Shown here: positions 21,646 to 37,080 of the stretch, piece by piece | Layout of the letters: each line of letters starts with the position of its first letter | Numbering within the stretch: position 1 is the stretch's first letter | Assembly: GCA_024281055.1 (NCBI GenBank) | Contig: JAMXLF010000098.1 | Location: 1 to 64,000, forward strand | From: Geobacteraceae bacterium | GTDB taxonomy: Bacteria; Desulfobacterota; Desulfuromonadia; Geobacterales; Geobacteraceae | Direction of reading: 5' to 3' | DNA length: 64,000 nt | The notes under the pieces: model-generated | The model's input: the letters and a program-made list of their open reading frames with translations, nothing else | Databases searched by the model: none | What the model was told of the DNA's origin: nothing | Made by a program: the position numbers and the translations under genes

Positions 21646-21662
21646 TGTAAACTTTTTTTACA
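21646..21662. promoter_or_regulatory. palindrome copy 1, TGTAAACTTTTTTTACA
   Basis: One mismatch from the perfect 7-3-7 palindrome found in copies 2 and 3. Its start is 19 bp (nearly two helical turns) from the start of copy 2, so proteins bound to the two would sit on the same DNA face. Confidence 0.65.
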
Positions 21663-21664
21663 AG

Positions 21665-21681
21665 TGTAAACTTTGTTTACA
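21665..21681. promoter_or_regulatory. palindrome copy 2, TGTAAACTTTGTTTACA
   Basis: Perfect inverted repeat TGTAAAC-TTT-GTTTACA, typical in size and symmetry of a dimeric repressor or activator site. The cognate regulator is unknown. Confidence 0.68.
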
Positions 21682-21735
21682 TTTCCCCTGAAGCCTCGCC
21701 CGGCGGGAGCTTTTACCAATTATCGCTTTTAGGGG

Positions 21736-21752
21736 TGTAAACTTTGTTTACA
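21736..21752. promoter_or_regulatory. palindrome copy 3, TGTAAACTTTGTTTACA
   Basis: Identical to copy 2, 71 bp further on and about 115 bp before the response regulator start, a position where it could cover a promoter. Confidence 0.68.
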
Positions 21753-21867
21753 TTGTTGCTGGTCACCTTGATATCACGAATCTGTAACATACCGGTATTC
21801 TATGGAAATGCAAGTTGGCATGATTCCTGATACCGCTATGAAACAAATCCGACTTCGAGGTATGCCC

Positions 21868-22248
21868 GTGGCAAAGAAGAATATTCTGATCGTCGAAGAT
21901 GAAGGGATAACCGGGGAATATCTGATGCTGGTGCTGTCGGGCCTCTATAACGTGACCGCCGTCGTGCCGTCGGGTGAGGATGCCGTGGCCGTAGCCACGG
22001 CGGCCCGGCCGGATCTTGTGCTGATGGACATAAAGATCAAGGGTGAAATCGACGGCATCACGGCCGCCGAGCAGATCATGCGGACAACCGGCATCCCGGT
22101 CATCTTTGTCAGTGCCTATGCCACGGACTATGTGATCGCCCGGGCGATGGAGACAAAGCCCTGCGATTACATCGTCAAGCCGTTCACGAGCCGGCGGCTG
22201 CTCGGGGCGGTGGAAAAGGCCCTGGCGGGGAAGGCGGGTAACACCTGA
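21868..22248 (+). CDS. single-domain response regulator (CheY-like)
   Basis: A 126-residue receiver domain with no output domain. Conserved residues are present: the acidic pair in IVEDEG, phospho-acceptor Asp in LVLMDIKIKG, Thr/Ser position in IPVIFVSAYA and Lys in YIVKPF. The spacing (DIKIKGEIDGI) resembles receivers that accompany hybrid or PAS kinases. GTG 21868 is preferred because GAGG is seven bases upstream; ATG 21862 and upstream ATGs lack a site at good distance. It stands alone behind three palindromic sites and ahead of a terminator, so it is a monocistronic regulated gene. Partner kinase unknown. Confidence 0.85.
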   Translation: MAKKNILIVEDEGITGEYLMLVLSGLYNVTAVVPSGEDAVAVATAARPDLVLMDIKIKGEIDGITAAEQIMRTTGIPVIFVSAYATDYVIARAMETKPCDYIVKPFTSRRLLGAVEKALAGKAGNT

Positions 22249-34491: not shown

Positions 34492-35833
34492 CGTCGAGCA
34501 ACCCGTACTTTTTCAGTTTGTACTGGAGGGTGCGCCGGGAAACCCCCAGTTCTTCCGCCGCCAGTCGGCGATTCCCTCCCTGGTTGCGCAGGGCGGTCAG
34601 GATGAGGTCCCGTTCCGTGGATTCCAGGATGTCCTTTGCCTCATGCTGTTCCGGAGCGGTGCCCCGGAGCAGTTCTCCGGGAAGGTTGTCGAGCCGGATG
34701 AATCCGGCGGCCAGGATGACCGCCCGCTCGATGACGTTCTGCAGCTCGCGGACATTGCCCGGCCAGGCGTACGCCTTCATGGCGTCCAGCGCCTCTTTGT
34801 CGATTCCGTCGAGCTTCTTGCCGACCTGCTTGCTGAAGCGGCGGAGGAAGTAGTCCGCCAGCGGCGGGATTGCATCGCGGCGCTCCCGCAGCGGGGGGAG
34901 GTGGATGGGAAAAACGTTGAGCCGGTAGTACAGGTCTTCCCGAAACCGCCGTTCCGCCACCTCGGTCTGCAGGTTGCGGTTGGTGGCGGCGATTACCCGG
35001 ACATCCGCCTTGATCTCCATGTTGCCGCCGACCCGCTCGAAGACTCGCTCCTGCAGGACACGGAGAAGCTTCGCCTGCAGCGGCAGCGGCATTTCCCCGA
35101 TCTCATCCAGAAAGATGGTCCCTCCCCGCGCCAGTTCGAATTTGCCCTGGCGGGCCTGCACTGCCCCGGTGAATGCCCCCTTTTCATGGCCGAACAGCTC
35201 GCTCTCCAGGAGATTTTCCGGGACGGCCGCACAGTTCAGGGGGATAAAGCCCGCCTCGCGCCGGGAACTCAACCCGTGAATGGTTCTCGCCACGAGCTCT
35301 TTGCCGGTGCCGCTCTCGCCGTAGACGAGTACGTTGGCGCTCGTCGCCGCCACATCCCTGACGAGCTTCTGCACCTCCTTCATGGCCTGGCCGGCGAAGA
35401 TCAGTTCCTGGGGGGGGAGCCCCGCGGCTTCGGATTCCTTGAGCGACAGATAGTCCCGCGTCTGGCTCTGGCTCTCGATCGCCCGACGAACGAGGGTGAG
35501 CAGGGTGTCGGGGTCGGCAAGGGGCTTGGTGAGGAAATCTACCGCCCCTTCCTTCATGGCGGCAACCGCTTCTTCCACTCTGCCGAAGGCCGTCACGAAA
35601 ATGAACCGGGGAGGGGCCGGGTCGTTTCTGGTCGCGCGGAAGAGTTCCAGCCCGCTCAGGCCGGGCATCTTCAGATCGGAAATGACGAGGTCGAAACTTT
35701 CGCGCCGCAGAAGACGCAGGCCGGCATTCCCGTCGCCGGCGGTGTGCACCTCGTGCCCATCGTCTTCCAGGATGGTCTGCAGGAAACCTCTGAAACTCTC
35801 GTCGTCTTCGACCAGGAGAATGCGCCCCTTCAT
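34484..35833 (-). CDS. sigma-54 response regulator (second NtrC-family system)
   Basis: A 449-residue activator: receiver domain (residues 4-118, phospho-acceptor in DLVISDLKMPG), AAA+ core (about 143-370, Walker A GESGTGKEL, sigma-54 loop GAFTGAVQ), and Fis-like DNA-binding end (LGVSRRTLQYKLKKYGL). All motifs for ATP-driven opening of sigma-54 promoters are intact. The cognate kinase gene lies 26 bases upstream. Likely targets are the exported-protein genes directly downstream, whose upstream region holds paired half-sites; this is inference. Confidence 0.92.
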   Translation of the reverse strand: MKGRILLVEDDESFRGFLQTILEDDGHEVHTAGDGNAGLRLLRRESFDLVISDLKMPGLSGLELFRATRNDPAPPRFIFVTAFGRVEEAVAAMKEGAVDFLTKPLADPDTLLTLVRRAIESQSQTRDYLSLKESEAAGLPPQELIFAGQAMKEVQKLVRDVAATSANVLVYGESGTGKELVARTIHGLSSRREAGFIPLNCAAVPENLLESELFGHEKGAFTGAVQARQGKFELARGGTIFLDEIGEMPLPLQAKLLRVLQERVFERVGGNMEIKADVRVIAATNRNLQTEVAERRFREDLYYRLNVFPIHLPPLRERRDAIPPLADYFLRRFSKQVGKKLDGIDKEALDAMKAYAWPGNVRELQNVIERAVILAAGFIRLDNLPGELLRGTAPEQHEAKDILESTERDLILTALRNQGGNRRLAAEELGVSRRTLQYKLKKYGLLDGA

Positions 35834-35859
35834 ACCTCACTACCTCCGTTGCCGGTCTG

Positions 35860-37080
35860 CTATCCCCGGGGGAGAACCACTGTGAACGTCGTTCCTCTCC
35901 CCACTGCGCTTTTGACGCTTATTTTCCCATTATGCTCCTCTGCGATTTTTTTGCAAAGGGCTAACCCAAGGCCGGTGCCCCGCGCCCTGGTCGTAAAGAA
36001 CGGCTCGAATATCCGGTTCATGGTCTCGACACTCATGCCCTGGCCGGTATCGCTCACGGTAAGTACAACGCTTTTGCCCGAAACATCAGCGGCGACACGG
36101 AGGCTCCCGCCGCCGGGCGTCGCCTGGAGGGCGTTTTTCACGAGGTTGAGGAGGAGTTGTCCCAACCGGTCACGATTGCCAACAACCCGCAACCCCTCGC
36201 AGCAGTCGCTGCCCAGCGTTACCTTCTGCTCCGCGGCTTCCTGCCGGATGAGAGCGACGACGGAGGCGATCAGCTCGCACAACGGGACGGGGGCGTGGGT
36301 GGCTGAATCGGTGCCGGCATAGGCCAGCAGGTCGTTCACCAGGTTTTCCAGGCGCAGGACCTCGGCAACGATGCGGTGGGCGAAGCCGGCATTGCGGGGT
36401 TCCTGGGGCTTCTTCTCGATGACCTGCGCAAAACCCTTGATTCCCGCCAGTGGGTTGCGTATTTCGTGGGCCAGCATCGCCCCCATTTCCCCCAGCTGAG
36501 CAAGGCGTTCGCGCCGCGCCATATCGATCCGATGCCGTTCTTCGCGAATGGCGTAGCGGTACAGTACGATCCCGAGGACCCACCCCAGCGCCAGGAGCGC
36601 GAGCAGCACCGCCATGTTGTACTCGGAGCGCCTGATGACGGCATCGGAGCGGTACGTATGCAGGGTGAGGCGCAGGACGTCCATTTCGCCGGGAAGGTAG
36701 AGAGGAGTGTAGAATTCGTAGGCCCGTTCCCCGGTGCCGAGGGTCACTCGCCGCTCCGAGATCGCCTTGCTGGCAAGGATTCGCTTGTACGTGTCGCTCT
36801 CGGCCGGGGAGCCGATGAGGTCCGGGTTGGAATGGAAGCGGTAGACGCCCCTCCGGTCGATGATGGCAAAGAAGGCGATGTCGGGGGGGTGAAACCCGCC
36901 GAGGGTTTTGAGGGAAGGGTCGCGAACGGCGATGTTCTCGATGGCCGAGGTCAGAATTAGGGCCAGCCCGCGGAGGTTTTCCTCGGCAAGGGGGCGGGAT
37001 GTCCGGTAGTTCCCCATGGCGAACCAGATGAGCACTGCCGAGATCCCGATGCCTGTCAATAAGATGATGCGCTTTATCAT
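35860..37080 (-). CDS. membrane sensor histidine kinase
   Basis: A 406-residue kinase with TM1 at about 4-22, a periplasmic sensor of about 135 residues (single-Cache-like look: FAIIDRRGVYRFHSNPDLIG), TM2 at about 158-178, H-box MLAHEIRNPLAGIKG, and ATPase motifs LLLNLVKNALQA, VSDTGQGM and GTGLGLAL. The periplasmic domain should sense a small molecule or metal outside the cytoplasm. It pairs with the sigma-54 regulator 26 bases downstream and is transcribed divergently from a Met-rich barrel gene at 37265. Confidence 0.92.
   Translation of the reverse strand: MIKRIILLTGIGISAVLIWFAMGNYRTSRPLAEENLRGLALILTSAIENIAVRDPSLKTLGGFHPPDIAFFAIIDRRGVYRFHSNPDLIGSPAESDTYKRILASKAISERRVTLGTGERAYEFYTPLYLPGEMDVLRLTLHTYRSDAVIRRSEYNMAVLLALLALGWVLGIVLYRYAIREERHRIDMARRERLAQLGEMGAMLAHEIRNPLAGIKGFAQVIEKKPQEPRNAGFAHRIVAEVLRLENLVNDLLAYAGTDSATHAPVPLCELIASVVALIRQEAAEQKVTLGSDCCEGLRVVGNRDRLGQLLLNLVKNALQATPGGGSLRVAADVSGKSVVLTVSDTGQGMSVETMNRIFEPFFTTRARGTGLGLALCKKIAEEHNGKISVKSAVGRGTTFTVVLPRG

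Follow-up and report, generated by a model that had tools for sequence, protein, structure and literature searches.

The window, a 64,000-nucleotide stretch from the genome of a Geobacteraceae bacterium (G000), was searched for palindromic sites, and three 17-bp palindromes were confirmed within positions 21646-21752. Site 1 (21646..21662) reads TGTAAACTTTTTTTACA, carries one mismatch, and marks position 0 of the conserved array. Site 2 (21665..21681), 19 bp from site 1, and site 3 (21736..21752), 90 bp from site 1, are exact copies of TGTAAACTTTGTTTACA; no strand is assigned to any of the three. The preliminary description had listed two perfect copies and one with a single mismatch, including a 19-bp-spaced pair, and these are the copies at 21665 and 21736 and the variant at 21646. 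With up to three mismatches allowed, we found four palindrome matches in the window compared to 0.37 expected from shuffled windows (the largest shuffle gave 2), and 3/4 of them are the array sites.

The gene downstream of the array encodes a single-domain response regulator (21862..22248, plus strand), the presumed target. The product consists of a receiver domain alone (PF00072, E 9.5e-20), in agreement with the earlier claim that the array precedes a lone response regulator. The GTG at 21868 could also serve as the start codon, and a start at 21862 or 21868 is more likely than one at the first in-frame ATG (21802), because this ATG precedes the predicted promoter. The predicted sigma-54 promoter TTGGCATGATTCCTGATA is located at 21815..21832 on the plus strand, with the GG of the -24 block at 21817-21818, the G of the -12 block at 21829, and A in place of C at 21830. 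A weak IHF-like element, TAACATACCGGTA, lies at 21785..21797 on the plus strand, where other arrays show TAAC-N4-TGA.

Pattern searches across the entire genome (4.44 Mb) revealed 6 occurrences of the 36-bp unit formed by the 19-bp-spaced pair, and none of the reversed control pattern. The six arrays are located on contigs C98 (the contig of the window), C19, C24, C35, C63 and C69, and all follow a common plan, with site 1 at 0, site 2 at +19 and site 3 at +88 to +90. Conservation is limited to the 17-mers, their spacing and the promoter. The intervening DNA shows no relationship between loci, so the arrays are not copies of one element. Each is followed by a gene in the same direction. An Rfam search of the array leaders of this genome found no riboswitch, and no other box emerged when a subset of loci, including the flanks of activator homologues, was scanned generically for further pairs of 17-mer palindromes.

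Among 277 genomes of the class, the 36-bp pair with at most three mismatches was found only in G000, G047 and G036. Relaxed site searches combined with reading of the loci gave 18 arrays in four genomes: G000 and G036 have six each, G047 has five, and G003 has one variant array with the sites CGTAAACTTTTTTTACC, CGTCAAAAAACTTTACG and CGTAAACTTTTTTTACA. Arrays are thus rare, occurring in 4/48 genomes of the family. A further genome, G034 (L251-L254), carries four arrays that also comprise three sites, here TGTAAAAATTTTTTACA-like palindromes spaced 56-57 bp apart. A TTGGCATG element whose -12 block is odd in the same way lies 264-266 bp downstream of each. These arrays resemble a sister regulon of different geometry, and one of them precedes another transglutaminase-like giant.

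Among the presumed targets in G000, lone response regulators follow the arrays on C98 and C69, a RadC gene follows that on C35, and a GspH-like pseudopilin gene follows that on C63. The array on C24 is followed by an unknown protein and then by a gene that we take, from reading its sequence, to be DUF4124-like, and the array on C19 by a secreted protein of more than 1300 aa, presumably transglutaminase-like on the same basis. Some target types recur across genomes. The response regulators of G000 C98, G000 C69 and G036 C145 are 48-56% identical, while another homologue in the same genome as the window (C76, L273) has no array. The transglutaminase-like giants (G000 C19, G036 C41, and G047 C14, the latter behind a single strong site) and the DUF4124-like genes (arrays G000 C24 and G036 C77) were matched across genomes by sequence reading, without a scored alignment. 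A small protein is common to the G047 C49 and G003 arrays (38% identity). The preliminary description had named random placement and absence at orthologues as observations that would speak against it; we found the motif tied to promoters and recurring before related genes. In G036, a c-di-GMP-I riboswitch lies between an array promoter and the transglutaminase-like giant (L033:2219-2297), so this gene may be controlled twice.

The promoter element is a regular part of the array. TTGGCAYG-N6-TG is found about 81-83 bp beyond the start of site 3, and in some arrays 89-96 or 103-105 bp beyond it, an extra displacement of roughly one or two turns of the helix. When the region beyond site 3 was searched for the -24 block alone, 14/18 arrays scored at least 7/8, versus 1.4 expected from shuffles. 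At the assigned positions, GG at -24 and the G at -12 are present in 18/18 arrays, whereas the C that should follow is present in only 1/18; the base is T, A or G in the other 17. The distances from site 3 to the -24 block fall into groups separated by roughly one turn of the helix (p about 5e-4 in a Rayleigh test with an 11-bp period), which is supportive only, because three promoter positions were assigned with the help of the -12 G. The IHF-like element is enriched in the spacer between site 3 and the promoter (mean mismatches 1.72 versus 2.44 in shuffles, lowest shuffle mean 1.94), most frequently 33-34 bp into it, and it is better in C19 (G000), G036 C77 and G047 C22 than in the window.

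The accessible text of the published Geobacter sulfurreducens RpoN regulon gives the consensus as TTGGCACGGTTTTTGCT (PMC2725144). The array promoters match it in the -24 block and in the G at -12, but differ in that the -12 C is missing, and we saw no such three-site array in that text. A second RpoN as the cause of the odd -12 block was rejected, as a genome search found one rpoN only. We tentatively suggest that some sigma-54 promoters of Geobacteraceae form a subclass that has lost the -12 C (TTGGCAYG-N6-TG[T/A/G]) and is used with the three-site enhancers of activators from a single expanded response-regulator family, although we would sooner bet against this than for it.

Among the activators of G000, a protein encoded at C63:70501-71937 combines receiver, Sigma54_activat and Fis HTH domains, and its gene adjoins a histidine kinase gene. 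Its best matches are in G047 (67%), G036 (65%) and G003 (61%). In a tree of the best hits of the family genomes, the orthologues of G000, G047, G036 and G003 form a clade with support of 100/99, in an analysis for which the program warned of long branches joining. This clade was found in the same 4/48 family genomes as the arrays and only in those, a co-distribution that is weaker than it appears because shared ancestry could partly account for it. The recognition helix of the clade is RQ(A/G)L(H/Y)(K/R)R(I/L), versus RQTLNKRL, the commonest in the best hits of other genomes.

The activator gene is also linked to an array in three genera. An array is located about 8-9 kb from it in G000 and G047, inside a common gene block, and in G003 the array lies directly before a small gene, the kinase and the activator, all on one strand. 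This arrangement, with the array heading the kinase-activator operon, suggests autoregulation of the activator. Judged from these sequence comparisons, the protein at C63:70501-71937, with its adjacent histidine kinase, is the most likely candidate activator of the arrays. In G000 C63 (L193:3499-11483), a TonB receptor, an ABC_sub_bind protein, the histidine kinase and the activator are encoded together, and a geopeptide radical SAM maturase (TIGR04280) adjoins the kinase-activator block; a literature search for 'geopeptide' with Geobacter found nothing. Homologues of the C63 activator have multiplied in genus g7, with up to 12 per genome.

Taken together, these data make it likely that the three palindromes are an enhancer of the predicted sigma-54 promoter, read by the C63 activator with its kinase, and that they define a regulon, since the same module lies before at least five other genes of the genome. 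A dimeric NtrC-type response regulator, probably phosphorylated, would bind each 17-bp palindrome, and the dimers on the 19-bp pair and the third site would help to form the ATPase ring. The ring would then contact RNA polymerase with sigma-54 at 21815-21832 through DNA looping, probably assisted by a bend at the IHF-like element, and transcription of the lone response regulator would start.

The array resembles known NtrC-type sigma-54 enhancers in its multiple, helix-phased palindromic dimer sites 80-190 bp upstream, in the -24/-12 and IHF-like elements, and in the receiver/AAA+/Fis architecture of the candidate regulator. It differs from them in its strict three-site plan at six loci and in the replaced -12 C. 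Because the sites precede a sigma-54-type -24/-12 element by 80-190 bp at six genomic loci, an enhancer (UAS) for an NtrC-type activator is a better reading than a site for the GntR/TetR/LacI-type regulator proposed earlier. Of the cooperative dimer-binding operator suggested in the preliminary description, the symmetric, phased, multi-dimer regulatory site holds, but the sites are very probably not an operator beside a sigma-70 promoter. A classical dimeric repressor or activator of the TetR, GntR or LacI type acting at a sigma-70 promoter would fit the 7-3-7 palindrome, a common operator form. We nevertheless regard it as very improbable. What is conserved is a set of three sites together with a -24/-12 element, at a fixed, helix-phased distance; the sites are placed far ahead of where transcription is predicted to begin, which is unusual for a repressor; and in three genera the arrays are linked to a kinase-activator pair. 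Even less credible is a dispersed mobile or structural repeat without a role in transcription. Six near-identical copies and the tRNA genes near two arrays, C19 (G000) and C41 (G036), would suit such a repeat, but only the 17-mers, spacing and promoter are kept, and arrays and downstream genes share direction.

A more serious competitor, though still an unlikely one, is the same sigma-54 enhancer read by another activator, either the TyrR-like one in the window or one of the other activators common to G000, G036 and G047. The TyrR box is TGTAAA-N6-TTTACA, and BirA operators have TGTAAAC-like half-sites 14-16 bp apart. The half-sites TGTAAA/TTTACA of the array resemble the TyrR box and are shared with the boxes of TyrR-like sigma-54 activators (PhhR, GcsR). 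The best HTH_50 match of the genome (E 4.4e-9) is a TyrR-like sigma-54 activator encoded in the window itself (34499-35900, minus strand). Moreover, two Clostridia-type MAG contigs (L040:976-1044 and L041:156-213) carry TGTAAAY palindromes, spaced by 19 bp, ahead of sigma-54-like promoters and beside what looks like a TyrR-like helix; we take the targets to be methionine gamma-lyase-like and tryptophanase-like genes and the neighbour a TyrR-like activator. However, five bases rather than six separate the arms of the array, with a conserved C/G beside the arms, and the earlier statement that it is not a canonical TyrR box is therefore correct. BirA was likewise rightly set aside, as the half-sites are 3 bp apart within each palindrome. 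The window's TyrR-like protein has an orthologue in G036 (79%), but its best match in G047 (47%) is reciprocal to another protein, and G047, with no orthologue found, has five arrays.

We found no literature match to the exact motif. Nor did the largely open-access literature searched yield a description of the regulon, of the box or of a systematic loss of the C at -12. The kind of mechanism, an enhancer for a sigma-54 activator, is well known, while the -12 element is unusual. The palindrome can now be assigned to a defined regulon for which a candidate activator and its kinase are named, and a single putative switch would cover lone response regulators, RadC, a pseudopilin and the giant secreted proteins. 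It also provides a natural set of predicted sigma-54 promoters without the -12 C, in which leakiness and enhancer dependence can be studied. If the subclass is real, such promoters would be strictly dependent on the enhancer and the bend.
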